Positions 10,350-34,947 of a stretch of DNA of 64,000 nt are shown here, piece by piece. The first letter of the stretch is position 1, and each line of letters opens with the position of its first letter. This DNA is from Roseibaca sp. Y0-43 (lineage in GTDB: Bacteria; Pseudomonadota; Alphaproteobacteria; Rhodobacterales; Rhodobacteraceae). The notes beneath the pieces were generated by a model that had not been told where the DNA came from, made no database searches, and was given only the letters and a program-made list of their open reading frames with translations. Made by a program: the position numbers and the translations under genes. The stretch is taken from the NCBI RefSeq assembly GCF_020667835.1, contig NZ_JAFMPR010000005.1:186001-250000 (forward strand), given 5' to 3'.

Positions 10350-11258
10350 ATGTTGAACCATGTAACACCGCCGCCCGGCACCTACCCCGCGCTGATGACC
10401 ACCGCCGAGGTGGCGGAATTCCTGCGCACCAAGGAACGCACCATTTACGACATGGTGGCCAAGCAGGCGATCCCGTTCACCCGCGCCACGGGCAAGCTTT
10501 TGTTCCCGCGCCGCCTGATAGAGGCGTGGCTGGAAGCGCAGACCGAAACGCCCGATGCGGGCGCGCTGAGCATTCCGCAAATCTATTCCGGCTCGAACGA
10601 CCCGCTTCTGGACTGGGCGTTGCGTTATTCCAAGGCCGGGCTTGCGGTGCGCGCGGGCGATTCCACGCGCGGGCTGGATGATCTGGCGGCGGGCGAGGCG
10701 ATGCTTGCGGGGCTGCACCTGTTCGACCCGGTGTCGGATAGCTGGAACGTGCAGGCGGTGCGCAACGTGCTGTCGTCGCAATCCTTCGTGCTGGTGCATT
10801 GGGCTCGGCGCACGCAAGGGCTGCTGGTCGCGCCCGGCAACCCGCATGACGTGGCCAGCCTACGCGATTGTGCCGAACTGGGCCTGCGCTTCGCGCTGCG
10901 CAGCGAAGGGTCTGGCACGCAGCGCCTGCTGGATATTCAACTGTCGCGCAGCGGGCTGAGCATGGCCGATCTGAACATCGTCCCCGGCACCGCCCATACC
11001 CATGCCGATCTGGCAACCATGATAGAGACCGGCGCGGCCGATTGCGGTTTGGGCATTCAGGCCGCCGCTGGCGCGCTGGGGTTCGTGCCCTTGTTGGAAG
11101 ATGACCAGTTCGATCTGGCCATGACCCGCCGCGCCTATTTCGAGGAACCCGTCCAGCGCCTGATGGACTTCGCCCGCAGTCCCGAATTCGCGGCGCAGGC
11201 CGAACGGCTTGGCGGCTATGATCTAAGCCATCTGGGCCGGGTTGTCTGGAACGGTTAA
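10350..11258 (+). CDS. HTH (excisionase-type) regulator with periplasmic-binding-like domain
   Basis: A 302-residue one-component regulator candidate. Residues about 16-66 (TTAEVAEFLRTKERTIYDMV, then FPRRLIEAWL) form a MerR/excisionase-type HTH. Residues about 90-300 resemble a substrate-binding (PBP-like) domain, with LRSEGSGTQRLLD and ETGAADCGLGIQAAA. A related domain recurs at the C-terminus of the MoeA fusion at 33025. Position at the edge of the formate dehydrogenase and Mo/W island suggests it senses molybdate, tungstate or molybdopterin, which is inference. An alternative ATG lies at 10395. The 3' end overlaps the convergent WD40-cytochrome gene by four bases. About 235 bases of upstream DNA hold no gene. 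Confidence 0.8.
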   Translation: MLNHVTPPPGTYPALMTTAEVAEFLRTKERTIYDMVAKQAIPFTRATGKLLFPRRLIEAWLEAQTETPDAGALSIPQIYSGSNDPLLDWALRYSKAGLAVRAGDSTRGLDDLAAGEAMLAGLHLFDPVSDSWNVQAVRNVLSSQSFVLVHWARRTQGLLVAPGNPHDVASLRDCAELGLRFALRSEGSGTQRLLDIQLSRSGLSMADLNIVPGTAHTHADLATMIETGAADCGLGIQAAAGALGFVPLLEDDQFDLAMTRRAYFEEPVQRLMDFARSPEFAAQAERLGGYDLSHLGRVVWNG

Positions 11259-12532: not shown

Positions 12533-12538
12533 ATCGGC

Positions 12539-12694: not shown

Positions 12695-12708
12695 ATTGGT
12701 CTCTCCTG

Positions 12709-13812
12709 TCAGTTTTGCACGGTCGCTTTTGGACCGGCCTTGCTTTCCAGCGCGCCCATGACGGTGCGCGCCATATCCTGATACAGACGGCCCAAGGGGC
12801 CATCGGGGTCGCGCGCAAGGATGGGGCGGCCCGCATCCGACGCGCTGCGCAACTCCATCGACAAGGGTAGCGCACCAAGGAAAGGCACGCCGATGCGCGC
12901 GGCCTCTGCCTGCGCGCCACCTTGGCCAAAGATCGCATGGCTGCTGCCGCAATCGGGGCAGATGAATTGCGACATGTTTTCGATAATGCCCAAGGTCGGC
13001 ACATCGACCTTGTTGAACATGGTGATCCCGCGCCGTGCATCGACCAGCGCCAGATCCTGCGGGGTCGAGACGATGATCGCGCCCGCCAGATCGGTGCCCT
13101 GCGCCAGTGCCAGTTGCGCGTCGCCCGTGCCCGGCGGCATATCGACCAGCAAAAGGTCCAACGCGCCCCAGTCGACATCGGAAATCATCTGGGTGATCGC
13201 GGACATGATCATCGGACCACGCCAGACCATTGCGGTTTCGGGATCGACCAGCACGCCCATGGACATGGCTTTCAGCCCATAGGCCTGCATGGGCAACAGG
13301 CTGCGCCCCTGCCCCTTGGCGGGTTTGCCCGTCAGACCCAGAAGCGTCGGCAGCGACGGGCCGTAGATATCGGCGTCCAGCACCCCCACTTTCCAGCCCT
13401 GCGCCCGGAACGCCAGCGCCAGGTTCACCGTGGTGGTGGATTTGCCCACCCCACCCTTGCCAGAGGCCACGGCCACGACATGGCGCACCCCGGCCAAAGG
13501 CTTGGGCTTTGCGGGCGCGACGCTCAGCTTCGGCGGGGTCTTGGGCGAAGGCGTCGGGCTATCCGCCGTCAGCACCACGAAGACAGAGGTGACACCCTCC
13601 AGCGCGCGCAGCTTCGCTTCGACCGCGTCGCGCACGGGCATGAACGCCTCATGCTCACCCGGCGCGATTTGCAGCGAAACGCTGATCCGCCCGCCATTCA
13701 GCGACAGGCCAGACACGCGGGTGGATTGACCCAAGCTGGACCCGTCCGGCAAGCCAACCGAGGCGATGGCAGCGCGGGCTTGGTCAAGGAAATCGGGATC
13801 GGAGCTGCTCAT
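12709..13812 (-). CDS. mrp: Mrp/NBP35 family Fe-S carrier ATPase
   Basis: P-loop ATPase of 367 residues that carries and delivers Fe-S clusters. Residues 1-80 form a MIP18-like (DUF59) domain and 85-110 a Pro/Lys-rich linker. The deviant Walker A SGKGGVGKST spans 117-126. DADIYGPSLPTLLG, LLVDMPPGTGDAQL and the Cys pair in FICPDCG, which binds the bridging cluster, follow in order. The gene sits between the formate dehydrogenase gamma subunit and a cytochrome c gene, in line with a role in maturing the many Fe-S clusters of this island. The ATG at 13812 is preferred; the frame stays open upstream without similarity. Confidence 0.92.
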   Translation of the reverse strand: MSSSDPDFLDQARAAIASVGLPDGSSLGQSTRVSGLSLNGGRISVSLQIAPGEHEAFMPVRDAVEAKLRALEGVTSVFVVLTADSPTPSPKTPPKLSVAPAKPKPLAGVRHVVAVASGKGGVGKSTTTVNLALAFRAQGWKVGVLDADIYGPSLPTLLGLTGKPAKGQGRSLLPMQAYGLKAMSMGVLVDPETAMVWRGPMIMSAITQMISDVDWGALDLLLVDMPPGTGDAQLALAQGTDLAGAIIVSTPQDLALVDARRGITMFNKVDVPTLGIIENMSQFICPDCGSSHAIFGQGGAQAEAARIGVPFLGALPLSMELRSASDAGRPILARDPDGPLGRLYQDMARTVMGALESKAGPKATVQN

Positions 13813-13883
13813 GGCATTCCAGCTTTCACAACGCGGCCCCGCGCCTGCACAGCGCGAGGCCGGATTTTCACCAAGCGGACAAG

Positions 13884-14879
13884 TTACTCTGCCGGCGTCG
13901 CGGCCCCTTTGGCAGAGCCGGACTTGCCGCCCTTGACCTCTTCCACCCACAGGGCGTGGTGCTCTTTGGCCCAGTTTTCATCGACTTCGCCGGAACCCAT
14001 CGCATCGAACGCGCCTTCCATGCCGACAGAGCCGATATAGATATGCGCGATGATGATGGCAGACAGGCCAGCGGCAACCAGCGCGTGGATCAACTGGTAG
14101 AACTGCCAATCGGTGAAGCTGCCGGCAATACCCGGAAAGAGCAGCATAAAGCCCGTGTAGGACAGGGCAGCACCGCCAAGGATAACCGACCAGAAGATGA
14201 CCTTCTGACCCGCGTTGAACTTCTTGGCGGGCGGGTGGACGCCCTTCTTGAACAGGCCGCCACCGACCTTGATCCACTCGACATCCAGCTTGTTGGGGAT
14301 GTTTTCGATCACCCACAGCAGGAAGATCAGCGCCAGCGAGACCATGAAGGGCCATGCCAGGTAGTTATGCGCGATCTTGCCCCATGCCGAAAGCGTGCCG
14401 AATGCGCCCTCGCCCAGCAGCGGCAGGATGACGGATTTGCCGATAATCAGGTTCAAACCCGACAGCGCCAGGATGATGAAGGTCGACGCCAGCGTCCAAT
14501 GCGCGAAACGCTCGATCGAGTTGAAGCGCAGGATGGTGCGGCCCGACAGGCCGGAATCAACGCGGATGCGCCCACGCACAACGTAGAACAGCGTCAGAAG
14601 CGCCAGCATACCGACAACGGCGATGACCGACAGCGTGACGACCGTGTTGCCATGCAGCGCCGCCCAATCCTTGTTGACCGGCTTTATCAGGTTGCCTGCC
14701 GACTGGTCGGGAATGGACACACGCCCGCTGACCACGCCCTCGGTGCCAAGCGCTTGAAACAGCGCCTCTTCGCTGACCGATTCCGCTGTAGGGTTGACCT
14801 GTGCCTGCGCTTGCGGGGCCATGACGGCCACCGCGAATGCCAAGGACAGAGCTGCGCCGAATTTTGCAAGAATGTTCAT
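13884..14879 (-). CDS. formate dehydrogenase gamma subunit (cytochrome b)
   Basis: Membrane cytochrome b subunit of formate dehydrogenase, 331 residues. It should take electrons from the beta subunit and pass them to the quinone pool. After a signal-like segment (residues 1-26, ending PQAQAQ) comes a periplasmic stretch of about 80 residues and then several membrane spans. Candidate heme His residues lie in RFAHWTLAST, KIAHNYLAWP, QLIHALVAAG and IAHIYIG. The last 30 residues are charged. The long N-terminal extension is typical of the FDH3 gamma type rather than the shorter FdnI. It starts 10 bases after the beta subunit stop. Confidence 0.93.
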   Translation of the reverse strand: MNILAKFGAALSLAFAVAVMAPQAQAQVNPTAESVSEEALFQALGTEGVVSGRVSIPDQSAGNLIKPVNKDWAALHGNTVVTLSVIAVVGMLALLTLFYVVRGRIRVDSGLSGRTILRFNSIERFAHWTLASTFIILALSGLNLIIGKSVILPLLGEGAFGTLSAWGKIAHNYLAWPFMVSLALIFLLWVIENIPNKLDVEWIKVGGGLFKKGVHPPAKKFNAGQKVIFWSVILGGAALSYTGFMLLFPGIAGSFTDWQFYQLIHALVAAGLSAIIIAHIYIGSVGMEGAFDAMGSGEVDENWAKEHHALWVEEVKGGKSGSAKGAATPAE

Positions 14880-14889
14880 GGCTGCCCCC

Positions 14890-15486
14890 TTAGACCGTAA
14901 CCGTTTCGCCGTAAGCGTCGCGCCAGCCCCAAGCGCCAGAGCCGTAGCCACGGGTCACAACACGCTCGCGGTAAATCTCCGCAATGATGTCGCCATCACC
15001 CGCCAGCAGCGCCTTGGTCGAGCACATCTCGGCACAGAGCGGCAGCTTGCCCTCTGCCAAACGGTTCGCGCCGTATTTGACGTATTCCGCCTGAGACATG
15101 TCCGGCTCGGGACCGCCAGAGCAATAGGTGCATTTGTCCATCTTGCCGCGCGTGCCGAAATTGGCGGTCTGCGGATATTGGGGCGCACCGAAGGGGCAGG
15201 CATAGCTGCAATAACCGCAGCCGATGCAGGTGTCCTTGTTGTGCAGAACCACGGCGTCATCGGTGGTGTAGAAGCAATCCACCGGGCAAACGCTGGCGCA
15301 GGGTGCGTCGGTGCAATGCATACAGGCCATCGACACCGAGCGCTCACCGGGCAGACCATCATTGATGGTCACAACCCGACGCCGGTTGATGCCCCACGGC
15401 ACCTCGTGCTCGTTCTTGCAGGCGGTGACGCAGGCGTTGCACTCGATGCAACGGTCCGCATCGCACAGGAATTTCATTCGTGCCAT
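14890..15486 (-). CDS. formate dehydrogenase beta subunit, four [4Fe-4S] ferredoxin
   Basis: Electron-transfer subunit of 198 residues linking the catalytic subunit to the membrane cytochrome b. Four Cys-rich motifs are seen: CIECNACVTAC (C13, C16, C19, C23), CMHCTDAPCASVCP, CIGCGYCSYACP, and a last cluster split between CTYC and CAEMC. This is the pattern of FdnH/FDH3 beta subunits. Unlike FdnH there is no C-terminal membrane anchor, which fits the short FDH3 form. It lies 15 bases after the alpha subunit. Confidence 0.95.
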   Translation of the reverse strand: MARMKFLCDADRCIECNACVTACKNEHEVPWGINRRRVVTINDGLPGERSVSMACMHCTDAPCASVCPVDCFYTTDDAVVLHNKDTCIGCGYCSYACPFGAPQYPQTANFGTRGKMDKCTYCSGGPEPDMSQAEYVKYGANRLAEGKLPLCAEMCSTKALLAGDGDIIAEIYRERVVTRGYGSGAWGWRDAYGETVTV

Positions 15487-15501
15487 TGTTGTTTTCCTCC
15501 C

Positions 15502-18471
15502 TTATGCGGCCGCGATCTGGCAAAGCGTGACCTTGCCTTCATGCATCCCCGTCACCGGGTCATAGCCATAGGTGGTGATGACGTTCACAGATTCGCCCAA
15601 GACGATCGGGTCGGTGCCCTCGGGGTAGTTGCCCCGCTGGTCTTCGCCCTGGAACCAACCTGCGAAATGGAAGGGCATGAAGGCCACGCCTGGCGCGACA
15701 CGCTCGGTCACAAGGGCTTTCACCCGCGCTTTCGAGCCGCCCTCGGGGCCAGTGACCCAGACCCAGCCGCCATCTACCACACCGCGCGATTGTGCATCGG
15801 CCGGGTTGATCTCGACGAACATGTCCTGCTTCAACTCGGCAAGCCATGGGTTCGAACGGGTCTCTTCACCGCCGCCCTCATATTCCACAAGGCGACCAGA
15901 GGTCAGGATCAGCGGGAAATCCCCGAAGACATTGCGCTCTGTCACGTCTTGCTGAACCACCTTGCCGATATTGGGCATCCGGTGCTGACGACGGTCGTCG
16001 TTGGTCGGGTATTGCGCCACAAGGTCCGGGCGGCCCGAATAGATCGGCTCGCGGTGGACCGGGATCGGGTCGGGCAGGTTCCACGCCACGGCGCGGGCCT
16101 TGCCATTGCCGAAGGGCACACAGCCATGCATCAGCGCAACGCGCTGAATACCGCCAGAGGTATCAAGCGACCACGACACGTTGCCCATGGCTTCGGGATC
16201 ATTGCCCCCGATGCGTGCGATATTGGCCAGTTCTTCTGGCGTCAGGTCGCTATCCCAGCCCAGCTGTTGCAGCAGCGCATAGGTGAATTGCGGATACCCG
16301 TCCTCGATCTCGGAGCCGACAGGCCAGCTGCCTTCGGCCAAGAGCGTTTCGCCATCGCGCTCCAGCCCGAAGCGCGGACGGAAGGCACCGCCCCCCTCCA
16401 TCGGGTGTAGGCTGGGGTTATACAGGATATGCGTGCCAGGATGGCGCAGTTCCGGCGTGCCCCAGCAGGGCCACGGCAGACCGTAGTAATCGCCCTTGAT
16501 CTCTTCGGGGGCGTCGGGCTTGGCGCGCAGCGTGACCAGATCGAAATGCTCTTGGTTCGCCATATGCGCTTTCAGACGCTCGGGGCTTTGCCCGGTATAG
16601 CCGGTGGACCAGCCGCCCCGGTTGATTTCGCGCAGCACCGATTCCGGCGTCGGCTCCATGCCGAACTTGCCCTGAACCATCTCGTAGTTCTTGAACATCT
16701 CGTCGGCGAAGCCCAGACGCTGGGCCAGACCATACATCACCGCGTAGTCGGTATCCGATTCAAAGATCGGCTCGACCACCTTTTCGCCCCACTGAACCGA
16801 GCGGTTCGACGCGGTGCGCGAACCAGAGGTTTCGAACTGCGTGCAGATCGGCAGCAGATAGGTATTGTCGGTGCGCGAATGCAGCGCCGCGAAGGTCGTC
16901 GGGTGCGGGTCGGCCACGACCAGCAGCTCCAGATCGTTCATGCCGCGCTGCGCGTCCTGCATCCGGGGCACGGTGTTACCGCCATGCCCGAACACCATCA
17001 TCGCCTTGATGTTGTCCTGCTGGTCGATCTCTTCGTTGTCGATCGTGACAGCGTCGAACCAGCGGGTCGAGGTGATGCCCGGCACGTTCATGTTTTCCTC
17101 GGGCGTGCGCGCATCGCGGCCACCCTTCGCCGGAACCGCATCGAAGCGGTTGACGAAATATTCATATGGCACGTCCCAGACGCGCGCCCAGTGGTTCCAT
17201 GCGCCCGCGCTCAGGCCATAGTAGCAAGGCAGGTTGGCCACATCCAAACCGAAATCGGTCGCGCCCTGCACGTTGCAGTGGCCGCGGAAGATATTCGCGC
17301 CGTTACCTTCGCCACCCACGTTGCCGGTGGCCAGCAGCAGCAGGTTGTAGGCGCGCACATTCGCGGTGCCCACGGTGTGCTGCGTGCCGCCCATGCACCA
17401 GATAAACGTCGAGGGGCGTTCCTTCGCGAATTTCTCGGCCACGCGGCGCAGCGTGTCGCCATCGACGCCGGAAATCTCTTCGACCACCTCGGGCGTGTAG
17501 TTCTTCACCACCTCGCGGACCTGGTCCATCCCCCAGACACGCTGGGCGATGTATTCCTTGTCTTCCCAGCCATTCTCGAAAATGTGCCACAACATGCCAT
17601 GGACCACCGCGATATCGGTGCCGGGGCGGATGCGGACATATTCGGTGGCATGGGCCGCCGTGCGGGTGAAACGCGGGTCCAGAACGACCACGTTCGCGCG
17701 CTGGGTTTCCTTGCCTTCAAGGATATGCTGCAACGAGACCGGGTGTGCCTCTGCCGCGTTTGACCCCATGAAGATGATGGTCTTGGCGTTGCGAATGTCG
17801 TTGTAGCTATTGGTCATCGCACCATAGCCCCAGGTATTCGCAACCCCGGCCACGGTGGTCGAGTGGCAAATCCGCGCCTGGTGGTCGACGTTGTTGGTGC
17901 CCCAGAACGCCGCCAGTTTGCGGAACAGATACGACCCTTCGTTCGAGAATTTGGCGGACCCCAGCCAATACACCGAATCCGCGCCGGAATTCGCACGGAT
18001 CTCGGTCATCTTCTCGGCAATCTCGTTCAGCGCCTGATCCCAAGAGATGCGCTGCCATTCGCCGCCGACTTTCTTCATCGGGTATTTCAGGCGACGGTCG
18101 CCATGGACCAGCTCGCGGACCGAAGCGCCCTTGGCGCAGTGGGTGCCGCGGTTGATCGGGCTGTTGAAAGCCGGTTCCTGACCGACCCAGACACCGTTCT
18201 GCACCTCTGCCACGACCGAGCAGCCGACCGAGCAGTGGGTGCAGATATTCTTTTTCAGCTCAATCGGCTGCGACATGTCGGTGAAGCCTGCGGCCTCGAC
18301 CCGGCGGGTCATGCCTGCGCCCAAGGTGGCGACGGCGGCAAGCCCCCCGACGGTCAGCCCCGACGCGCGCAGAAAGCTGCGGCGATCCAATGGCTTGGCG
18401 GCAACACTTGCAGCGAACTGGCTCAGGCGACCGCCCGACGCGGCCTCGCGGGTTCTGCGCTTTACAAGCAT
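15502..18471 (-). CDS. formate dehydrogenase catalytic alpha subunit (Cys-type, Tat-exported)
   Basis: Catalytic Mo/W-bis-MGD subunit of 989 residues, oxidising formate to CO2 on the periplasmic side. A Tat signal spans residues 30-61 (DRRSFLRASGL). The [4Fe-4S] site is C77, C80, C84 and C112. The catalytic position is C202 in ARICHSTTV, where E. coli FdnG has selenocysteine in ARVUHGPTV, and His203 follows. The MGD-binding regions and the C-terminal molydopterin dinucleotide-binding domain are intact. Two spaced extra segments (about 440-480 and 640-680) are characteristic of FDH3 alpha. A strong GGGAGGA lies before the ATG at 18471. The metal, Mo or W, cannot be read from the sequence. Confidence 0.95.
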   Translation of the reverse strand: MLVKRRTREAASGGRLSQFAASVAAKPLDRRSFLRASGLTVGGLAAVATLGAGMTRRVEAAGFTDMSQPIELKKNICTHCSVGCSVVAEVQNGVWVGQEPAFNSPINRGTHCAKGASVRELVHGDRRLKYPMKKVGGEWQRISWDQALNEIAEKMTEIRANSGADSVYWLGSAKFSNEGSYLFRKLAAFWGTNNVDHQARICHSTTVAGVANTWGYGAMTNSYNDIRNAKTIIFMGSNAAEAHPVSLQHILEGKETQRANVVVLDPRFTRTAAHATEYVRIRPGTDIAVVHGMLWHIFENGWEDKEYIAQRVWGMDQVREVVKNYTPEVVEEISGVDGDTLRRVAEKFAKERPSTFIWCMGGTQHTVGTANVRAYNLLLLATGNVGGEGNGANIFRGHCNVQGATDFGLDVANLPCYYGLSAGAWNHWARVWDVPYEYFVNRFDAVPAKGGRDARTPEENMNVPGITSTRWFDAVTIDNEEIDQQDNIKAMMVFGHGGNTVPRMQDAQRGMNDLELLVVADPHPTTFAALHSRTDNTYLLPICTQFETSGSRTASNRSVQWGEKVVEPIFESDTDYAVMYGLAQRLGFADEMFKNYEMVQGKFGMEPTPESVLREINRGGWSTGYTGQSPERLKAHMANQEHFDLVTLRAKPDAPEEIKGDYYGLPWPCWGTPELRHPGTHILYNPSLHPMEGGGAFRPRFGLERDGETLLAEGSWPVGSEIEDGYPQFTYALLQQLGWDSDLTPEELANIARIGGNDPEAMGNVSWSLDTSGGIQRVALMHGCVPFGNGKARAVAWNLPDPIPVHREPIYSGRPDLVAQYPTNDDRRQHRMPNIGKVVQQDVTERNVFGDFPLILTSGRLVEYEGGGEETRSNPWLAELKQDMFVEINPADAQSRGVVDGGWVWVTGPEGGSKARVKALVTERVAPGVAFMPFHFAGWFQGEDQRGNYPEGTDPIVLGESVNVITTYGYDPVTGMHEGKVTLCQIAAA

Positions 18472-20196: not shown

Positions 20197-20201
20197 GGCG
20201 G

Positions 20202-23014: not shown

Positions 23015-23072
23015 TGTCCCGTCTCTGTCTGGCGCGGGCATTTGGCCCGGCGCGCCTTTCCTTCGCTTTAGG

Positions 23073-23089
23073 TGCGACTTATATTCGCA
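23073..23089. promoter_or_regulatory. inverted repeat between divergent operons
   Basis: TGCGA-N7-TCGCA is a perfect 5-bp inverted repeat with an AT-rich spacer. It lies in the 108-base gap between the divergent ligase-like and ferredoxin-like genes, where a shared operator would be placed. Low information content keeps confidence modest. Confidence 0.3.
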
Positions 23090-23122
23090 GAGATAGTCAG
23101 CCAGAGGCCCGAGAAAAGCCCT

Positions 23123-25629: not shown

Positions 25630-25631
25630 CG

Positions 25632-27115: not shown

Positions 27116-27603
27116 AGGTTTACGGCGTAACCGGCTGGAAAAACACCGGAAAGACGACCCTGACCGAGCGGCTTGTCGCGCATCTGACGGGCGAAGGCCT
27201 GCACGTGTCGACCGTGAAACACGCCCATCACGACACCGAAATCGACCATCCCGGCCGCGACAGTTTTCGTCACAGGCAGGCGGGTGCGGGGCAGGTTCTG
27301 GTCGTCTCTCCCGCGCGGTGGGCGCTGATGACGGAATTGCGCGACGCGCCAGAGCCGCCGCTGGACGCGATGTTGGGGCAGCTTGCGCCCTGCGATCTGG
27401 TGCTGATCGAGGGCTACAAATCCGCGCCGCACCCCAAGGTGGAAACTTACCGCGCGACCGCCGGGCGCGACCTGCTGGCCACGCGCAACCCGACCATTCG
27501 CGCCATTGCTGCCGATTGCGCGCTGGACAGCACCCTGCCCCGGTTCGATCTGGACGACGTGCCCGCCATCGCCGCCTTCATCCGGGCCGAGGTCGGGCTA
27601 TGA
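27112..27603 (+). CDS. mobB: molybdopterin-guanine dinucleotide biosynthesis protein B
   Basis: P-loop GTP-binding helper of MGD synthesis, 163 residues. The Walker A TGWKNTGKTT is at residues 6-15. VSTVKHAHHDTEIDHPGRDSFR and DLVLIEGYKSAPHPKVETYR follow, the latter with the conserved E-G-Y/F-K. It partners MobA and is not essential in E. coli. It overlaps mobA and moeA by four bases each. The in-frame reading that seems to join it to MoeA in another frame is only an open stretch. Confidence 0.93.
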   Translation: MKVYGVTGWKNTGKTTLTERLVAHLTGEGLHVSTVKHAHHDTEIDHPGRDSFRHRQAGAGQVLVVSPARWALMTELRDAPEPPLDAMLGQLAPCDLVLIEGYKSAPHPKVETYRATAGRDLLATRNPTIRAIAADCALDSTLPRFDLDDVPAIAAFIRAEVGL

Positions 27604-28871
27604 CCCTGCAACCGCCCAAGCTGCGCAACGACTGTTTCGCCATGCCGCAAGGCGTGGATTGGGTGCCGGTGGATGACGCGCTCGCCCGTCTGCGCGCCTC
27701 GCTGCACCCGGTTGTGGCGGTGGAAACCGTGCCCGTGGCGCAAGCCGCAGGCCGCATTCTGGCTGCCGATGCCGTGGCCCGGCGGTCGAACCCGCCCGCC
27801 GCGAATGCCGCCGTCGATGGCTACGGCTTTGCCCATGCCGCGCTGACAGAGGGCGTGAATACCCTGCCGCTGGTCACGGGCCGCGCGGCGGCTGGGCAGC
27901 CGTTTGACGGGGCCGTGCCCCATGGCCATGCCGTGCGCATCCTGACCGGGGCGGTCCTGCCCGAAGGCGTGGACACGGTCGTGCTGGAGGAAGATTGCGC
28001 GAGCGACGGGCAGCAGGTGGCCTTTCGTGGGCCGCTGAAGCCCCGAAGCAACACCCGCCGCGCGGGCGAGGATGTTGAAAAAGGGCAAGTCGCTTTGCGT
28101 AAATCCGCCCGTTTGCGCCCAACGGATGTTGCATTATTGACAGCCTTGGGGCTGCCCGAGGTGCAGGTGTTCAAACGTTTGCGGGTTGGCGTTCTGTCTA
28201 CCGGCGATGAACTGGCCCAAGGCGCGGCCACCGGCGCGCACCAGATTTACGACGCGAACCGACCCATGCTTTTGTCGCTGATCCAAGGTTGGGGATATGA
28301 CGCCATCGACCTTGGCCAAGCCCCGGATTGCGCGACCGAGATCGCCGCGCGACTGGATGCGGGCGCGCAAAGGGCCGACCTGATCCTGACCTCTGGCGGG
28401 GCATCGGCGGGGGATGAGGACCATGTCTCTCGCCTGCTGCGCGACCGGGGGCAACTGACAAGCTGGCGCATCGCCGTCAAACCGGGCCGCCCGCTGGCCA
28501 TGGCGATGTGGCAGGGCGTGCCGGTGCTGGGCCTGCCCGGAAACCCCGTCGCGGCCTTTACCTGCACGCTCGTGTTCGCGCGGCCAGCCCTGTCGCTTCT
28601 GGCGGGCGCAGGCTGGCAACAGCCGCGGGGGTTCACGGTGCCCGCCGCATTCACCAAGCGGAAGAAACCGGGGCGCCGCGAATTCTTGCGCGCGCGGCTG
28701 AACGCGGATGGTGCGGCAGAGGTATTCGCGTCGGAAGGATCGGGGCGTATTTCGGGCCTCGCTTGGGCCGATGGCTTTGTCGAACTGCCTGATGGCGGCG
28801 CAGAGATCACCCCCGGCACGCCCGTGCGCTACATTCCCTACAGCGCCTTCGGGCTTATGCCCGCCGGATGA
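27600..28871 (+). CDS. moeA: molybdopterin molybdenumtransferase MoeA
   Basis: Inserts molybdate into adenylylated molybdopterin. The 423-residue product has the MoeA domains in order: AANAAVDGYGFAH (substrate Asp in VDGY), ILTGAVLPEGVDTVV, VGVLSTGDELAQ, YDANRPML, LTSGGASAGDEDHV, KPGRPLAM and GLPGNPVAAF. The C-terminal domain IV follows from about residue 350. It is the last gene of the fdhD run. The 3' end overlaps the convergent tusA-like gene by 17 bases. Confidence 0.94.
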   Translation: MTLQPPKLRNDCFAMPQGVDWVPVDDALARLRASLHPVVAVETVPVAQAAGRILAADAVARRSNPPAANAAVDGYGFAHAALTEGVNTLPLVTGRAAAGQPFDGAVPHGHAVRILTGAVLPEGVDTVVLEEDCASDGQQVAFRGPLKPRSNTRRAGEDVEKGQVALRKSARLRPTDVALLTALGLPEVQVFKRLRVGVLSTGDELAQGAATGAHQIYDANRPMLLSLIQGWGYDAIDLGQAPDCATEIAARLDAGAQRADLILTSGGASAGDEDHVSRLLRDRGQLTSWRIAVKPGRPLAMAMWQGVPVLGLPGNPVAAFTCTLVFARPALSLLAGAGWQQPRGFTVPAAFTKRKKPGRREFLRARLNADGAAEVFASEGSGRISGLAWADGFVELPDGGAEITPGTPVRYIPYSAFGLMPAG

Positions 28872-29085
28872 AAAACGCGTGGCTGCCGTCGGGCATGTCT
28901 TGCGTTGCGACCAATTCGTGCCCGCTCTCATGGCAGAAATGCGGGATGTCCACCAAGGCCGCCGGGTCGCTGGTCAGCACTCGCAGCACTGCGCCAGAGC
29001 TCAACCCTTTCAAGCGTTTGCGCGCCTTCAGCACCGGCAGCGGGCAAAGCAATCCTAGCGTGTCGAGCGTGTCATCGGCGGTCAT
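28855..29085 (-). CDS. TusA family sulfurtransferase
   Basis: A 76-residue sulfur-carrier protein with the family motif LGLLCPLPVLKARKRL; the persulfide Cys is C14. TusA proteins pass sulfur for tRNA thiolation and, in several bacteria, for molybdenum cofactor enzymes. Being next to fdhD, mobAB and moeA, it could give sulfur to FdhD, but the gene reads the opposite way, so co-transcription is not possible. Tail overlap with moeA is 17 bases. Confidence 0.88.
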   Translation of the reverse strand: MTADDTLDTLGLLCPLPVLKARKRLKGLSSGAVLRVLTSDPAALVDIPHFCHESGHELVATQDMPDGSHAFFIRRA

Positions 29086-29142
29086 GGCGGCCCTGTTCTT
29101 GGTCTGCGCTGTAATCTGCGCAAACCCGCGCCGATTTCAAGC

Positions 29143-29607
29143 CTAACCGACGGGCGTGAACTGGCAACGGTCGGGCTTTATGTCGATCAGCGGCGTTCCA
29201 TTCACGCATTCCAGACCGCGCACGATCAGGCGATTGCCCTCTCGGGCCACAAGCCGGACATTCGACAAACCGATGGGATTGGGCCGAATGGGCGAACGCA
29301 GGCTGAACGTGCCGCGCGGAGCATCGGCATGTTTGGGGTTTTGCAGCACCAGATCGCGGCGCGACTGGTGCAGCCAATACAGAATATCCAACCGCTCGAA
29401 CTGGTCGATCCCGTCCAGCGCGCGATCCCATGGCGCGGCCACGACGATGGTGCAATCCGGCCCCGCGAGCGGGTCGCCTTGGCGCGGGCAGTCTGCGCGG
29501 GTGGGCCATGGCGTCTGTATATGGCCGATAAAGGCCAGCGTCGCATCCACGGGCAAGGGCGTGTCGCAAGCGACCTCTCCGTCGCGCAGGGGTTGGGGTG
29601 TGGTCAT
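29143..29607 (-). CDS. TrmO/TsaA family tRNA methyltransferase
   Basis: A 154-residue SAM-dependent enzyme of the UPF0066/TsaA barrel family, which N6-methylates threonylcarbamoyladenosine-37 in tRNA-Thr in E. coli. It has AFIGHIQTPWPTRADCPRQ at the start and SLRSPIRPNPIGLSNVRLV, the signature. It keeps GLECVNGTPLIDIKP and lacks the extra C-terminal domain of E. coli TrmO, as do many bacterial homologues. The ATG at 29607 is divergent from tupB. Confidence 0.82.
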   Translation of the reverse strand: MTTPQPLRDGEVACDTPLPVDATLAFIGHIQTPWPTRADCPRQGDPLAGPDCTIVVAAPWDRALDGIDQFERLDILYWLHQSRRDLVLQNPKHADAPRGTFSLRSPIRPNPIGLSNVRLVAREGNRLIVRGLECVNGTPLIDIKPDRCQFTPVG

Positions 29608-29622: not shown

Positions 29623-29674
29623 AGCATTTTACTGCATTTAAGCGCATAATTTACATGTTTGCAGATTTTATGCA
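29623..29674. promoter_or_regulatory. phased GCA elements upstream of tupB
   Basis: In an AT-rich stretch, AGCA at 29623, TGCA at 29633 and CGCA at 29643 are one helical turn apart, with TACA at 29652. TGCA follows at 29660 and 29671. The first part repeats the pattern before torD (19377-19410). This is the 105-base gap between divergent trmO and tupB. It is a candidate operator for tungstate or molybdate control. Confidence 0.4.
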
Positions 29675-29712
29675 TTTCTGTTCTTTATTTCCCGTTTAGA
29701 TCAGGATTCTGC

Positions 29713-30408
29713 ATGGACGGCCCTTTTGCAACAGCAATTACCCTGATCGCAACGGCGGATAGCGCGCTGGTGCAGATCATCGGGTTGTCGCTGCGCGTGA
29801 CGCTCAGCGCGGTGGTCATCGCTTGCGCGGTGGGCCTGCCCTTGGGGGCTGCACTGGCGCTGGCGCGGTTTCGCGGGCGGGGCGCGGTGATCGTGCTGTT
29901 CAACGCGCTGATGGGCTTGCCGCCGGTGGTGGCGGGGCTGCTGGTCTACCTGCTGTTGTCCCGCTCTGGCCCGCTGGGGTCTTTGGCGCTTCTGTTCACC
30001 CCGACGGCGATGATTATCGCGCAAACCGTGCTGATCTTGCCAATTGTCGTGTCGCTGACCCGCTCGGTGGTCGAAGACCTGTGGGGCGAATACCGCGAGC
30101 AACTGACCTCGCTCGGCGCAAGCCGCTGGCGCGCGGTGCCGACGCTGTTATGGGACGGGCGCGTGTCGTTGCTGACGGGCGTTCTGGCAGGCTTTGGCCG
30201 CGCCAGCGCCGAAGTTGGCGCGGTGTTGATCGTGGGCGGCAATATCGCGGGCCACACCCGCACCATGACGACCGCGATCACGCTCGAAACCAGCCGGGGC
30301 AATCTGGGGCTGGCGGTGGCGTTGGGCCTCATCCTGATGGCGCTGACGCTCAGCCTGAACGCGGTCGCGTGGGGTGCGGGCCAATGGGCCAAGGGGCGTT
30401 TGGGATGA
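29713..30408 (+). CDS. tupB: tungstate ABC transporter permease TupB
   Basis: Inner-membrane permease of a tungstate importer, 231 residues with about five to six membrane spans. The inner loop EYREQLTSLGASRWRAVPTL carries the EAA-type motif that docks with the ATPase. RASAEVGAVLIVGGNIAGHTRTMTTA is typical of the TupB/WtpB branch. The ATG at 29713 follows an AGGA; the open frame begins at 29659 upstream. It overlaps tupC by four bases. Confidence 0.88.
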   Translation: MDGPFATAITLIATADSALVQIIGLSLRVTLSAVVIACAVGLPLGAALALARFRGRGAVIVLFNALMGLPPVVAGLLVYLLLSRSGPLGSLALLFTPTAMIIAQTVLILPIVVSLTRSVVEDLWGEYREQLTSLGASRWRAVPTLLWDGRVSLLTGVLAGFGRASAEVGAVLIVGGNIAGHTRTMTTAITLETSRGNLGLAVALGLILMALTLSLNAVAWGAGQWAKGRLG

Positions 30409-31121
30409 GCGCGGGCGGCATTCTTCCCCTATCCCTGCGCGGCATGGGCTATGCGGTGGGCGGCACGGCCCTGTTGTCGGACGTAACGCTCGACATTCCC
30501 GCCGGTCGGCGGCTGATCGTGATGGGGCCGAACGGGGCGGGCAAAAGCCTGTTCCTGCGCCTGTGCCATGGGTTGATCGACCCTACATCGGGCACGCGCA
30601 AATGGGCGACTGGCGCCGCCCGCCCACGCGCGCAGGCGATGGTGTTCCAAAGGCCTGTCCTGCTGCGCCGGACGGTGGCGGCGAATATCGACTATCCGCT
30701 GGGTCTGGCGGGACTGGCGCGCGCAGAACGCGCCGCCAAAGTGGCACAGACGCTTGATCGGTTCGGCCTGCGCGACATGACGGATCAGCCCGCGCGGTTG
30801 CTTTCGGGCGGTCAGCAGCAACGGCTGGCGCTGGCGCGCGCGTGGGCGATGGACCCGGAAATCCTGTTTCTGGACGAGCCGACATCGGCGCTCGACCCCT
30901 CTGCCACCCGCATCATAGAGGAGATGGTCGCGCAATTCGCGGACGAAGGCATCACCATCGTGATGACCACCCATAACCTTGGCCAAGCGCGCCGCCTGGC
31001 GCAGGACGTGGCCTTTTTGCATCGCGGGCGGCTGATCGAGCATCGGCCTGCCGACCAGTTTTTCGCGGGGCCCCAGACCCCCGAGGCCCAAGCCTTTCTG
31101 GCCGGGGATCTGGTCTGGTAA
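30405..31121 (+). CDS. tupC: tungstate ABC transporter ATP-binding protein TupC
   Basis: ATPase of 238 residues that drives tungstate uptake. Walker A GPNGAGKS is at residues 41-48. The signature LSGGQQQR, Walker B ILFLDEPTSALDPS and switch His in MTTHNLGQ are intact. There is no C-terminal molybdate-binding (TOBE/MOP) domain as in ModC. It overlaps tupB by four bases; tupA follows after 21 bases. Confidence 0.9.
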   Translation: MSAGGILPLSLRGMGYAVGGTALLSDVTLDIPAGRRLIVMGPNGAGKSLFLRLCHGLIDPTSGTRKWATGAARPRAQAMVFQRPVLLRRTVAANIDYPLGLAGLARAERAAKVAQTLDRFGLRDMTDQPARLLSGGQQQRLALARAWAMDPEILFLDEPTSALDPSATRIIEEMVAQFADEGITIVMTTHNLGQARRLAQDVAFLHRGRLIEHRPADQFFAGPQTPEAQAFLAGDLVW

Positions 31122-31142
31122 TCAAGAATCGGGAGAGAAAAC

Positions 31143-31955
31143 ATGACCCATACAAGCCGTTTCCTTCTTTCCGCTGCCTCTGGCTTGGCGTTGATCGCGG
31201 CCCTGCCTGCAAGCGCGGAAGAGGTCATCACCGTGGCCTCGACCACCTCGACCGAGAATTCGGGGCTGTTCGGGCATATCCTGCCCCTGTTCCAGTCCGA
31301 AACCGGGATCGAGGTGCGCGTGATCGCGCAAGGCACGGGCCAAGCGCTGGAAACCGGGCGGCGCGGCGATGCCGATGTCGTTTTCGTCCATGCCCGCGCG
31401 CAGGAAGAGGCCTTTGTCGCCGAGGGCTACGGCGTCCAGCGCTTCGACGTGATGTATAATGATTTCGTCATCGTCGGCCCGTCGGATGACCCGGCGGGAC
31501 TGGCGAATGCCGCCGACGCCCCCGCCGCCATGGCCGCGATTGCAGGTGCGCAAGCGCCCTTCGCCTCGCGCGGAGACGATAGCGGCACGCATAGCGCCGA
31601 GAAGCGGCTTTGGGCGGCGGCGGGTGTGGAACCCGGCGGCGCATGGTATCTCTCGACCGGGTCGGGCATGGGGGCCACGCTCAACACCGCCGCGCAGGTG
31701 CCCGCCTATGCGCTGACCGACCGGGGCACATGGCTGTCCTTCCAAAACCGTGGGCCGCTGACGATTAGCTTTGAGGGCGACCCGGTCCTGTTCAACCCCT
31801 ACGGCATTATCCTTGTGAACCCCGAGCGCCATCCGCATGTGAAGGCAGAGGCGGGTCAGGCCTTTATCGACTGGATCGTGTCCGAGGCAGGCCAGAACGC
31901 CATTGCAAGCTACCAGGTCGGGGGCGAGCAATTGTTCTTCCCCAACGCGCAATAA
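31143..31955 (+). CDS. tupA: tungstate-binding periplasmic protein TupA
   Basis: Substrate-binding protein of 270 residues. A Sec signal ends at about residue 25 (ALPASA). The oxyanion site has STTSTENSG at residues 33-41 and SRGDDSGTHSAEKRLW, which match the TupA motifs TTTS and RGDxSGT. TupA proteins favour tungstate over molybdate; this is a family property and was not tested here. The gene is third in tupBCA, and a strong hairpin (31965-32005) follows. Confidence 0.92.
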   Translation: MTHTSRFLLSAASGLALIAALPASAEEVITVASTTSTENSGLFGHILPLFQSETGIEVRVIAQGTGQALETGRRGDADVVFVHARAQEEAFVAEGYGVQRFDVMYNDFVIVGPSDDPAGLANAADAPAAMAAIAGAQAPFASRGDDSGTHSAEKRLWAAAGVEPGGAWYLSTGSGMGATLNTAAQVPAYALTDRGTWLSFQNRGPLTISFEGDPVLFNPYGIILVNPERHPHVKAEAGQAFIDWIVSEAGQNAIASYQVGGEQLFFPNAQ

Positions 31956-31964
31956 TCCAATCCC

Positions 31965-32005: not shown

Positions 32006-32034
32006 AAACCGACAGGCGCGACTAGATCCCCTGC

Positions 32035-33021
32035 ATGAACAGTCTGACGCCCTTGGCCACCTGCCTGTCCGCCGCGCTGAACGGGGTGCTGCCGGTGCCG
32101 ACCCAATCGGTCGTGCCGGGCTTGGCCGTGGGCGGCGTTCTGGCCGGTGACGTGGTCCTGCCGCATGACATGCCGCCCGTGTCGGAAGCCTTGCGCGCGG
32201 GCGTGGCGGTTGCGGCGCTCGACCTTGTCGGTGCCAGCCCCGGCGCGCCGGTGCCGTTGTCCGACCCGGTTGCGGTCGTCCCCGGCGCGGCACTGCCGCC
32301 CGGCACGGACGCGGTTTTGCCAGAGGACGGGATCGAGCGTTGGGGCGCGATGGCAGAGGCCATGCGCCCACTCTCGTCGGGCGATGGCGCACGTCGCGCG
32401 GGCCATGACGGGCGCGCGGGCGCGGTCTTGGTGCAGGCGGAAACGCGGCTGACGGCGCGCCATGCCTTTGCCGCCAGACAGGCAGGCGTGCAAAACGTGA
32501 CAATCCGCCGCCCGCGCGTGGCGGTGCAACTGGATGACCCGACGCAAGCGGATTTCGTCGCAGCTTGGTTGGCCGATCTGGGCGCAGAGCTGGGCACAGA
32601 GCGGCCTGACCTAACCCTTCGCCGCACCCCTAACCATGCCCCCCGCCTCGCCCTTGGCCCGGCGGAAACCGCCTGGCTGGCGCGCGATGCGGCCGGTCTG
32701 GTGCTGGACCTGCCTGCCCGCTTCGACGGGATGGTAGCCGCGCTATATGCGCTCGCCCTGCCCGCCTTGGCGCGGCTGTCGGGCGCAAGCCCGCGCGCGG
32801 ATGGCAGGCCGCTCGCGCGCAAGGTGACATCCACCGTGGGCCTTTCAGAGCTTGTGCTGTTGCAGGCCGAGGGCGACGCATGGCTGCCCCAGCCTGCGGG
32901 GCTGGTGACGCTCAGCGCGCTGGCCACGGCTCATGCTTTCGCCATCCTGCCCCCGGAAAGCGAGGGCTGTGCGGCAGGCACCCCCCTTGCCGCGACCCCG
33001 CTTGACCAACCCTTGGGATAG
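32035..33021 (+). CDS. degenerate MoeA-like protein
   Basis: A 328-residue protein distantly related to MoeA N-terminal regions: ALRAGVAVAALDLVG, VVPGAALPPGTDAVLPEDG, and GDGARRAGHDGRAGAVLVQ. The catalytic motifs are missing, as no GDEL, YDSN or SGGxSxG is seen, and PPVSEALRAG replaces the VDGYA loop. It may be a subunit or regulator of the MoeA-PBP protein encoded three bases downstream. No clear ribosome site precedes the ATG, and an alternative start inside the first 30 codons is possible. Confidence 0.7.
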   Translation: MNSLTPLATCLSAALNGVLPVPTQSVVPGLAVGGVLAGDVVLPHDMPPVSEALRAGVAVAALDLVGASPGAPVPLSDPVAVVPGAALPPGTDAVLPEDGIERWGAMAEAMRPLSSGDGARRAGHDGRAGAVLVQAETRLTARHAFAARQAGVQNVTIRRPRVAVQLDDPTQADFVAAWLADLGAELGTERPDLTLRRTPNHAPRLALGPAETAWLARDAAGLVLDLPARFDGMVAALYALALPALARLSGASPRADGRPLARKVTSTVGLSELVLLQAEGDAWLPQPAGLVTLSALATAHAFAILPPESEGCAAGTPLAATPLDQPLG

Positions 33022-33024
33022 ACC

Positions 33025-34947
33025 ATGACAGAGATGATCCCGCCCGCCGGGCAAAGCCAGTTCCTGACGGTCCTGTCGCGCGACGCCGCCGAAGCCGCGT
33101 TCTGGGCCGCCCTTGCCCCCGCGCCCTTGGGCGAGGAAGAGGTCGCACTCGATACGCTCGCAGGCCGCGTGCTGGCGCGCGACATCGCCGCCCCGGTTGA
33201 TGCGCCGCCCTTCGACCGGGCCACGGTCGATGGCTTTGCCCTGCGCGCGGCGGATCTGTTCGACGCCTCGGCCGCGAACCCGGTGCATCTGCGACTGAAC
33301 CCAGAGGTCATTGCCTGCGGCCACGCCCCCACCTTGCCCGTCGCCCCCGGCACGGCCACGCCCATCGCAACCGGCGGGCCAATCCCGCGCGGGGCGGATG
33401 CGGTGGTGATGATCGAACATACCGACCCGGATGGCGACGGCATCGCGGTTGCGCGCGCCGTGGCACCGGGCGCGCATATCGGCTTTGCCGGGTCCGACAT
33501 TGCGCGCGGACAGACGCTTTTGCGCAAGGGCATGGTCATTTCGGCGCGCGAGGTTGCGATGCTGGCCGCCGTGGGTTTGGACCGCGCGCCCGTCTGGCGG
33601 CGTCCGCGCGTGGCGGTTCTGTCCACGGGCGACGAATTGGTGCAACCGGGCCAGCCCTTGCGACCCGCGGGCATCTACGATTCGAACGGCCCGGTGATTG
33701 CCGCCGCCGTGGCGGAAGCGGGCGGTGAGGCCGTGCGCCTGAGCGCAATCGCGGATGACGCAGGGGCGCTGCGCGACGCGATCCGCGCGGCGCATGGCGC
33801 GCATGACGCCGTGATCTTGTCGGGCGGCACCTCGAAAGGGGCGGGCGACCTGACGACCACGCTGATTGCAGAGCTTGGCACGCCGGGGATCGTGGCGCAT
33901 GGCGTGGCGCTGAAACCCGGCAAACCACTTTGCCTTGCCGTGTGCGATGGCAAACCCGTGGTGGTGCTGCCGGGCTTTCCGACATCGGCCATGTTCACCT
34001 TTCACGAGCTTGTCGCCCCTGCGCTGCGCGCCATGGCGGGCCTGCCGCCCAAGGGCGCGGCACGGGTCGCGGCGACGGTGCCGCAGCGGATGAGTTCGGA
34101 ACTGGGCCGCACCGAATTTGCCATGGTCGCGCTGACGGACGGGCCAGAGGGGCTGGTCGCGCACCCGGTTGCCAAAGGGTCGGGCGCGGTCACGGCCTTT
34201 GCCCAAGCCGACGGGTTCCTGACCGTGCCGGCGCTGGCCGAAAGCGTGGCCCCCGGCACACGGGCCGAGGTGACGCTTTTCGGGGCCAATGTCGCCCCGC
34301 CGCGCTTGGCCATCATCGGCAGCCATTGCGTGGGGCTGGATGCGGTGACGGGGCAACTGGCGGATCGCGGGATCAGCGCGCGCGTGCTGGCCACCGGGTC
34401 GCAAGGGGGGTTGGCGGCGCTGCGGCGTCGCGATTGCGACATCGCGCCAATCCATCTGCTGCACGCGCAAAGCGGCACCTATAACCGCCCCTTCCTGCTG
34501 GACGGGATGCGGCTGATCCAAGGCTGGCGGCGGATGCAAGGGATCGTCTATCGGCCCGGCGATGCGCGGGCCGAGGGACGCGGGCTGGACGAGGCCATGG
34601 CCGCGCTGCTGGCCGACCCAGAGGCGCTGATGGTCGGGCGCAACCAAGGATCGGGCACGCGGGTGCTGCTGGACCGGCTGCTGGGCGGCGCGCGGCCTGC
34701 GGGCTATTGGAACCAGCCCGCGTCACATAACGCGGTCGCGGCGGCGGTGGCGCAGGGGCGCGCCGATTGGGGCATGGCAATCCGCCCGGTGGCGGATGCG
34801 CTTGGGTTGGGATTCATCCCCGTCGCGGATGAGCATTACGATTTCGCCGTCTGGCAAGACCCGCGCGACCCCGAGGCCGTGGCCGCCTTTGAAGCGGCCT
34901 TGCAGGCGAGTGGCGGCGCGTTGGAGGCTTGTGGCTTCACGATCTAA
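33025..34947 (+). CDS. MoeA fused to a periplasmic-binding-like domain
   Basis: A 640-residue fusion. Residues about 1-420 are a complete MoeA: DRATVDGFALRA, ATGGPIPRGADAVVMIEHTD, VAVLSTGDELVQPG, YDSNGPV, ILSGGTSKGAGD, KPGKPLCLAV and LPGFPTSAMFTF. Residues about 430-640 are a PBP-like domain with LAIIGSHCVGLDAV, GRNQGSGTRVLLDRLLGG and SHNAVAAAVAQGRADWGMA, resembling a molybdate/tungstate-binding fold and the domain of the regulator at 10350. It lacks a signal peptide and so acts inside the cell. It likely inserts W or Mo into the pterin, with the PBP domain selecting or holding the metal (inference). Confidence 0.88.
   Translation: MTEMIPPAGQSQFLTVLSRDAAEAAFWAALAPAPLGEEEVALDTLAGRVLARDIAAPVDAPPFDRATVDGFALRAADLFDASAANPVHLRLNPEVIACGHAPTLPVAPGTATPIATGGPIPRGADAVVMIEHTDPDGDGIAVARAVAPGAHIGFAGSDIARGQTLLRKGMVISAREVAMLAAVGLDRAPVWRRPRVAVLSTGDELVQPGQPLRPAGIYDSNGPVIAAAVAEAGGEAVRLSAIADDAGALRDAIRAAHGAHDAVILSGGTSKGAGDLTTTLIAELGTPGIVAHGVALKPGKPLCLAVCDGKPVVVLPGFPTSAMFTFHELVAPALRAMAGLPPKGAARVAATVPQRMSSELGRTEFAMVALTDGPEGLVAHPVAKGSGAVTAFAQADGFLTVPALAESVAPGTRAEVTLFGANVAPPRLAIIGSHCVGLDAVTGQLADRGISARVLATGSQGGLAALRRRDCDIAPIHLLHAQSGTYNRPFLLDGMRLIQGWRRMQGIVYRPGDARAEGRGLDEAMAALLADPEALMVGRNQGSGTRVLLDRLLGGARPAGYWNQPASHNAVAAAVAQGRADWGMAIRPVADALGLGFIPVADEHYDFAVWQDPRDPEAVAAFEAALQASGGALEACGFTI

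Follow-up and report, generated by a model that had tools for sequence, protein, structure and literature searches.

A 64,000-nucleotide stretch of DNA from Roseibaca sp. Y0-43 (Alphaproteobacteria, Rhodobacteraceae; contig NZ_JAFMPR010000005.1, positions 186,001 to 250,000 of the forward strand), here called the window, carries at its positions 10,350 to 34,947 an island of genes for a formate dehydrogenase (FDH), a predicted tungstate importer and molybdopterin cofactor maturation (Table 1). We consider it likely that these genes form a self-contained line that supplies tungsten to, and matures, a single enzyme, an exported, cysteine-type FDH of the kind called FDH3. Tungsten (W) enzymes of aerobes are few, and the way in which cells separate W from molybdenum (Mo) within a shared cytoplasm is not settled.

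The pathway that we propose would run as follows. A regulator combining a helix-turn-helix (HTH) and a PBP domain, of the TaoR/TupR type, would sense tungstate, and TupBCA would bring it into the cell. The MoeA encoded next to MobB, which has an Arg/Ala pair at its oxyanion site, would then insert W into molybdopterin, after which MobA would add guanosine monophosphate (GMP) and FdhD the terminal sulfur. A TorD-like chaperone would guard the apo-enzyme until the twin-arginine translocation (Tat) system exports FDH3, and FdhB and FdhC would hand the electrons to the membrane. The GMP addition by MobA, the sulfur transfer by FdhD, the guarding of apo-enzymes by TorD and the electron transfer by FdhB/FdhC are established roles of these families. 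The fusion protein MoeA-PBP and its degenerate MoeA partner would be an optional aid in W capture rather than the main insertase, and the fds genes, modABC and a second fdhD elsewhere in the genome would form a parallel Mo line.

FDH3 and its metal

The catalytic subunit starts with a twin-arginine leader (DRRSFLRASG), and its active-site motif, ...ARICHS..., has Cys followed by His, with Cys instead of selenocysteine. The beta subunit scores above the cut-off of NF038355 and, taken with the leader, a TorD-type chaperone and a gamma subunit, identifies the enzyme as FDH3. The closest solved match of the catalytic subunit is Shewanella oneidensis FdhA (9vap_A, 1244 bits), aligned over residues 23-988, nearly end to end. 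S. oneidensis belongs to another bacterial class, and a review characterises its FdhAB (9VAP) as a Cys-W, O2-tolerant FDH (PMC13397495). The three FDHs of Methylorubrum extorquens are listed as W (FDH1), Mo (FDH2) and "cytochrome-linked" (FDH3), the last with no metal given in the portion cited (PMC6520949).

No aldehyde oxidoreductase was found in the window's own genome (G000; 3.03 Mb in 54 contigs), and none of its five molybdopterin-family matches at a sensitive threshold was an FDH of the M. extorquens FDH1 type (MeFDH1-type), which leaves FDH3 as the only obvious tungsten client. A description of FDH3 as an independent W client in Alphaproteobacteria was not found in the literature. Judged from its sequence relatives and genomic setting, FDH3 likely carries W. 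The preliminary description of the island had suggested that the enzyme may do so; the Cys-W solved relative, the gene linkage and the genome surveys described below strengthen that suggestion.

The MoeA paralogues and their metal signature

The genome holds five MoeA_N genes: three in the island, one on the contig with narG (C5) and one on contig C51, where it adjoins a gene read by eye as moaC. The two MoeA systems of the preliminary description were thus an undercount. Work on M. extorquens reported that W in FDH1 requires MoeA1 and MobB, that Mo-FDH activity requires moeA2, and that FDH1 tolerates the loss of any one of moeA2 to moeA5. Two residues of MoeA1, Arg291 and Ala312, stand where Mo-insertases have Lys and Ser and shift assembly towards W, and W loading is still predominant at >30-fold Mo excess (PMC13197769).

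The island MoeA that has mobB directly upstream reads KPGRP...GNPVA, that is, Arg and Ala, the sequence type of M. extorquens MoeA1. MoeA-PBP reads KPGKP...GFPTS (Lys and Ser), the C5 protein KPGKP...GNPVS and the C51 protein RPGKP...GNPVS. Because the Arg/Ala pair occurs only in the MobB-linked MoeA, the genome appears to have one W-type insertase, which is not MoeA-PBP. By analogy with M. extorquens MoeA1, we infer that the MobB-linked protein puts W on molybdopterin.

The pair was followed in a survey of the class (231 genomes from 134 families) and one of the family (150 genomes from 149 genera). For the class count, the top match of the MobB-linked MoeA was taken from 110 of the 167 genomes having one; the 57 outside the count include 7 with TupA, and the 39 TupA-negative genomes retrieved were the higher-scoring ones. 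Within these limits, Arg/Ala was found in 68/71 TupA-positive genomes, the exceptions being G102 (Lys/Ala), G042 (Lys/Ser) and G062 (Arg/Ser), and in 31/31 FDH3-positive genomes retrieved (of 32). Among the family genomes with FDH3 and no MeFDH1-type FDH found, full-length Arg/Ala MoeAs 69-70% identical to the window's were present in G290, G303, G307, G336 and G375, and G357 has a contig-end piece (59%). The motif was read in 22 of the 43 family genomes in which neither FDH3 nor the MeFDH1-type enzyme was found, with Arg/Ala in G356 (62% identical, TupA-positive) and G265 (TupA-negative) and Lys in the other 20; 19 more were known by score only (34-39% identity), and 2 were retrieved without the motif being read.

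A piece of a MobB-type MoeA in genome G255 lies ahead of a MeFDH1-type FDH, on a contig other than that of its tup genes, and the same MoeA type may for this reason serve both FDH3 and the MeFDH1-type enzyme where the two coexist. The stretch concerned (L222, G255:C102) holds together the MoeA end, a small open reading frame (ORF) and the MeFDH1-type alpha subunit.

Predicted tungstate import and its regulator

TupA and TupB are named best by Tup models, and the solved structure nearest to TupA is Geobacter TupA (3lr1, 251 bits). The residues of the tungstate pocket used for comparison were the TTTS loop, Arg118, Thr124 and Asp170 (PMC5517513). The loop is conserved apart from a Ser in place of the first Thr, the Arg (Arg118) and Thr (Thr124) of SRGDxSGT are conserved, and so is the aspartate of TDRGT, which we took as Asp170 from the alignment to 3lr1. 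Family membership and pocket residues suggest that TupBCA imports tungstate. An E. coli strain that lacks ModABC can form active FDH1 when it has the TupBCA of M. extorquens (PMC13396061).

The regulator combines HTH_17 with PBP_like (172 bits for the latter), the domain make-up of the TaoR/TupR type. TaoR has HTH and PBP-like domains and regulates a W aldehyde oxidoreductase (PMC11980592), and tupR is named in Desulfovibrio vulgaris (PMC10102598). An AlphaFold2 model of the regulator (pLDDT 92) has a PBP fold. A fold search with it returned LysR-type regulators and PBPs that include molybdenum ABC binding proteins; since no TupA is among the best 50 matches listed, tungstate stays a predicted ligand. 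Regulator-type matches were found in 24 class genomes, all of them with TupA (24/24) and 15 with TupA at most 10 kb away; a counter-example is a regulator fragment at a contig end in the TupA-negative genome G024 (E 7.7e-18). Domain type and gene association together suggest that the regulator senses tungstate.

Association of TupA with FDH3 across genomes

The NAD-linked FDH alpha subunits were collected with TIGR01591 and fell into two groups, 850-967 bits (Fds-type) and 688-813 bits (MeFDH1-type), besides fragments. One representative was tested per group, and proved Rhodobacter capsulatus-like for the first and MeFDH1-like for the second (7vw6/8j83, 1465 bits vs 600). Genomes with truncated FDHs were left out (G325 from the family table, G048 and G168 from the class table), and the fragment of G149 (619.5 bits) was counted as MeFDH1-type.

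TupA was found in 78 class genomes and an FDH3 beta subunit above the cut-off in 32, with both in 30 (Fisher 2.4e-14). Sorted by FDH content, TupA was present in 26/28 genomes with MeFDH1-type and FDH3, 43/52 with the MeFDH1-type alone, 2/2 with Fds-type and FDH3, 0/41 with the Fds-type alone and 1/1 with FDH3 alone (G028, 100 contigs), so that FDH3 without a detected MeFDH1-type enzyme came with TupA in 3/3. None of these enzymes was found in 105 genomes, 4 of which have TupA (3 of these 4 with an aldehyde oxidoreductase); both truncated cases (2/2) have it.

In the family, TupA was found in 108 and FDH3 in 79 of the 150 genomes. Where no MeFDH1-type FDH was found, TupA was present in 7/7 genomes with FDH3 vs 2/43 without it (Fisher 3.6e-7). 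The seven are G000, G290, G303 and G307, which have the Fds-type, and G336, G357 and G375, in which no NAD-linked FDH was found. Restricted to genomes with the Fds-type and no MeFDH1-type, the figures are 4/4 vs 1/38 (p 4.5e-5). A genome of the same genus, G374, has the Fds-type only, and TupA, FDH3 and the Arg/Ala MoeA are absent from it together. Linkage of tup to FDH genes in relatives had been set beforehand as the test on which the preliminary reading could fall; TupA lies within 20 kb of the FDH3 beta gene in 40/79 family genomes, vs 4/103 for the alpha gene of NAD-linked FDHs (p 6.9e-14). On these counts the tungsten importer goes with FDH3, the exported enzyme, in its own right.

MoeA-PBP and its degenerate partner

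MoeA-PBP scores above the PRK14498 cut-off and has PF12727 at its C-terminus. The product of the preceding gene, here named MoeA5, falls outside MoeA proper: it has no recognisable molybdopterin-binding domain III, and the GGxS, KPG and GNP motifs are absent. Its AlphaFold2 model is of low quality (mean pLDDT 64). Three relatives likewise match PF03453 alone, and the corresponding protein of G041 matches all three MoeA domains.

Strong PBP_like matches (E <1e-38), the ones opened, were found in 26 class genomes, all with TupA (26/26). Four of them were confirmed as MoeA-PBP (G000, G041, G158 and G028) and 18 as regulators by reading; G168, G082, G199 and G116 were judged to be regulators by frame length (308-324 aa). 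Open-frame length alone was rejected as a way to tell the two apart, G046, G218 and G072 being regulators. A degenerate MoeA is found near MoeA-PBP in all four confirmed genomes, adjoining it in G000, G041 and G158 and about 2 kb off in G028. Domain III is unrecognisable in G000, G028 and G158; the G041 partner (L245:3594-4964) retains its full length, but its motifs have decayed (RPGDS, GEPMA), perhaps an intermediate towards the form without domain III. The gene order tupA, degenerate moeA, moeA-PBP recurs in G255 (FDH3 alpha 82% and TupA 80% identical to the window's). Among named genomes searched with the degenerate MoeA as query, MoeA-PBP directly follows it in 7/7 loci: Natronohydrobacter thiooxidans, Rhodovulum strictum, Rhodobacterales LSUCC0031 and metagenome-assembled genomes of Gemmobacter, Roseicyclus, Cypionkella and 'Proteobacteria bacterium'. 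MoeA-PBP is split in two frames in one of these loci (L236), and another, L233, and L220 of G255 seem to be one and the same contig. Methylorubrum was not returned by this search.

The N. thiooxidans locus (L230) has the MoeA5/MoeA-PBP pair with no recognisable tup or FDH3 genes within 10 kb on either side. In LSUCC0031 (locus L234) the pair is accompanied by the FDH3 alpha gene and tup, and the R. strictum locus (L231) contains fdhD-mobA-mobB-moeA with accessory genes from the FDH3 block, FDH3 itself being outside that stretch.

Neither a pseudo-MoeA partner or heterodimer nor a dead MoeA paired with MoeA-PBP was found described in the literature searched, as far as titles, abstract openings and term counts show. 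The pair may form a hetero-oligomeric insertase, in which the dead partner would make the dimer interface complete and the cytoplasmic PBP domain would catch scarce tungstate for a single live site serving FDH3, an idea that we put forward as speculative and rather unlikely.

The FDH3-Tup-MoeA islands of G290, G303 and G307 combine the FDH3 block and fdhD-mobA-mobB-moeA with tupBCA and the regulator, and include a MoeA homologue 69-70% identical to the window's; the stretches read contain no MoeA-PBP or degenerate MoeA, and the match lists give one further MoeA of ordinary length for each genome. MoeA-PBP is on this account optional. In the class it was seen in 4/231 genomes, all with FDH3.

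Points against a dedicated tungsten line and alternative explanations

Several observations weigh against a tungsten line dedicated to FDH3. TupA and TupB fall under the NCBI equivalog cut-offs (213 vs 400 and 163 vs 320 bits), as does every TupA match in the 78 class and 108 family genomes for the TupA model, NF041772. No statement on the metal of any alphaproteobacterial FDH3 was found in the literature searched, where most papers were judged from their list entries. TupA is missing from 2/32 class genomes with FDH3 (G104 and G192), and is present in two family genomes in which neither FDH3 nor a MeFDH1-type enzyme was found (G337, with the Fds-type, and G356, with no NAD-linked FDH found). 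Outside the family, TupA was found in 2/2 FDH3-positive vs 4/146 FDH3-negative genomes (p 0.0014), so just two FDH3 genomes are informative there. A MeFDH1-type enzyme is also present in 72/79 FDH3-positive family genomes and could explain their Tup. The family search for that enzyme was cut at E 1e-160 and misses fragments; G336, G357 and G375 are fragmented, and in G255 a MeFDH1-type FDH missed by that cut-off proved to lie at the end of a contig (65% identity over 369 residues). The Arg/Ala pair occurs in 15/39 retrieved TupA-negative class genomes, and Arg/Ala MoeAs form no single clean clade in a weakly supported tree (FastTree, 143 MoeAs, midpoint-rooted). The genomes and genera are related, and for this reason the Fisher p-values overstate independence. 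One point speaks against our rejection of a W-dedicated second MoeA rather than against the line itself: all four MoeA-PBP genomes of the class have FDH3 (p 3e-4), so the fusion may have a helper role in supplying W to FDH3.

FDH3 could be metal-promiscuous, with Tup advantageous when W is around and Mo working equally well. Some FDHs accept either metal, the genome also has modABC, and the two FDH3-positive class genomes without TupA would fit. We nevertheless consider this unlikely: TupA and the Arg/Ala MoeA are strongly retained with FDH3, the closest solved relative is described as Cys-W, and M. extorquens MoeA1 keeps its preference for W when Mo is in large excess.

A less probable alternative, implied by the preliminary description, makes MoeA-PBP the dedicated W insertase and the MobB-linked MoeA the standard Mo one. 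MoeA-PBP has been proposed as W-specific on comparative grounds and co-occurs with TupA in bacteria (PMC11733289). Three of its four class genomes are also the three with FDH3 and no MeFDH1-type enzyme found (p 2e-6; small numbers, post hoc); a role as marker of genomes where FDH3 is the sole W enzyme was weakened, G255 and G158 having the MeFDH1-type as well. However, the W-type residues sit in the MobB-linked MoeA, the islands of three relatives go without MoeA-PBP, and the fusion is seen in only 4/78 TupA-positive class genomes among the strong PBP_like matches. Two further MoeAs of the Lys/Ser type could serve Mo in the window's genome. The W enzyme of D. vulgaris is inferred to need both MoeA-PBP and another MoeA, whose fitness co-varies (PMC10102598), so the two are not alternative metal routes in that organism. 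In M. extorquens, FDH1 can do without moeA3 and moeA5, as already cited, a parallel that would apply if the MoeA3 there is a PBP fusion. The earlier assignment of the second MoeA to W is thus unsupported and most likely wrong.

It is very improbable that TupABC works for, or is left over from, a MeFDH1-type enzyme and has no connection with FDH3, for although TupA tracks that enzyme even more tightly (99/99 family genomes) and the supposed exception G255 has it, TupA is kept with FDH3 where no MeFDH1-type FDH was found, the window's genome has none at a sensitive threshold, and tup is found inside or next to the FDH3 cluster much more frequently than next to an NAD-linked FDH.

An apparent parallel molybdenum-type line

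The second FDH alpha subunit of the genome, on contig C1, is FdsA of the R. capsulatus type (6tg9, 1754 bits vs ~588 for MeFDH1). Its cluster (L011, G000:C1:73000-92000) also contains a NuoF-like FdsB and a separate FdhD, with modC, modB and modA on the other strand; FdsG, FdsD and a ModE-like gene were recognised by eye. The other molybdopterin-family matches of the genome, named by eye, are NuoG, NarG and a SoeA/Phs-like protein. Judged by gene content, fds, modABC and their own FdhD appear to form a parallel Mo line that mirrors the W island.

Relation to known systems

Most parts of the island have published precedents. The M. extorquens moeA1-mobB-tupBCA branch (PMC13197769) shares with it a MobB-linked Arg/Ala MoeA, tupBCA, extra MoeA paralogues, FdhD and MobA. 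However, the client studied there is the NAD-linked FDH1, whereas the island's is an exported FDH3 in a genome where no FDH1-type enzyme was found, and fdhD and mobA lie inside the same island here. The D. vulgaris tupABC/TupR and TaoR system (PMC10102598, PMC11980592) has the same HTH and PBP type of regulator, a tungstate importer and a MoeA-PBP beside an ordinary MoeA; its client is an aldehyde oxidoreductase, whereas in the island the partner of MoeA-PBP is a dead MoeA, and an Arg/Ala MoeA is also present. Fds of the R. capsulatus type (6tg9/6tga, Mo) is the type of the genome's second FDH, beside modABC, and is the Mo counterpart rather than the island's enzyme.

One small genome thus apparently contains two parallel lines, one for Mo and one for W, and single-gene deletions should allow the choice of metal to be tested. 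From the survey we predict that FDH3, present in 32/231 class genomes, is a tungsten enzyme, and oxygen-tolerant Cys-W FDHs are of practical interest for CO2 reduction.

Gene layout of the island and neighbouring features

Every gene named in the preliminary description was confirmed in its place. Two divergent blocks split near 23.2 kb, with the regulator at the extreme left of the island. The minus-strand block extends from the gene for the WD40-cytochrome c protein to that for the ligase-like protein, and the plus-strand block from the gene for the ferredoxin-domain protein to the small ORF and, after the opposite-strand trmO, from tupB to moeA-PBP. The island FdhD scores below the cut-offs of the NCBIfam FdhD models (155 vs 269 and 135.4 vs 140.9 bits).

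Table 1. Genes of the island, with positions in the window, strand and supporting matches.
Feature	Position	Strand	Basis
TaoR/TupR-like regulator (HTH_17 + PBP_like), predicted to sense an oxyanion (tungstate)	10350..11258	+	PF12728 + PF12727
WD40 repeats and C-terminal cytochrome c domain, 425 aa	11255..12532	-	Pfam
Mrp/ApbC-type Fe-S carrier ATPase	12709..13950	-	PRK11670 320 bits (below cut-off 348), PF10609
FdhC, membrane cytochrome b (gamma) subunit	13884..14951	-	TIGR01583, 142.6 vs 115.85 bits
FDH3 beta, iron-sulfur subunit	14890..15486	-	NF038355, 337 vs 240 bits
FDH3 alpha, Cys-type catalytic subunit of 989 aa with twin-arginine leader	15502..18471	-	best solved relative 9vap_A
Small Tat-signal protein, 71 aa	18474..18689	-	ISRRAFFGV leader
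TorD/NarJ-type chaperone	18750..19355	-	
DUF3306 protein	19495..20229	-	
DUF3305 protein	20202..20732	-	
DUF6352 protein	20746..21735	-	
DUF6505 protein	21738..22292	-	
Biotin/lipoate ligase-like protein, start uncertain	22289..23275	-	PF16917
Multi-[4Fe-4S] ferredoxin-domain protein	23072..25069	+	
DUF2478 protein	25102..25629	+	
FdhD sulfurtransferase	25425..26507 (ORF start; real start probably ~25620)	+	PF02634, 250 bits
MobA guanylyltransferase	26504..27115	+	TIGR02665, 200.6 vs 151.85 bits
MobB	27112..27603	+	TIGR00176, 159 vs 76 bits
MoeA1-type insertase with W-type Arg/Ala pair (KPGRP...GNPVA)	27600..28871	+	
Small conserved ORF	28868..29146	+	copies 57-67% identical in relatives
TrmO/TsaA-type tRNA methyltransferase, between moeA and tupB	29143-29607	opposite to plus block	
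TupB permease	29659..30408	+	NF038017 256.8 vs 100 bits; NF041773 163 vs 320
TupC ATPase	30405..31121	+	
TupA tungstate-binding protein	31143..31955	+	NF041772 213 bits (cut-off 400); 3lr1 251 bits
Pseudo-MoeA (MoeA5), domains I/II only	32035..33021	+	PF03453 only
MoeA-PBP fusion, Lys/Ser-type site (KPGKP...GFPTS)	33025..34947	+	PRK14498 732 vs 534 bits; PF12727

The WD40-cytochrome c protein at the end of the FDH3 block is a possible electron partner of the FDH, as a periplasmic acceptor. A trmO gene lies in or beside W genes in three genomes (the window, L040 and L247), adjoining tup in G028 and the MoeA5/MoeA-PBP genes in G158. DUF2478 genes stand both in the W island and beside the MoeA on the narG contig (L012, G000:C5). 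Outside the island, an ordinary SAM-alpha riboswitch occupies positions 7208-7286 on the minus strand, upstream of the ORF at 5973-7181.

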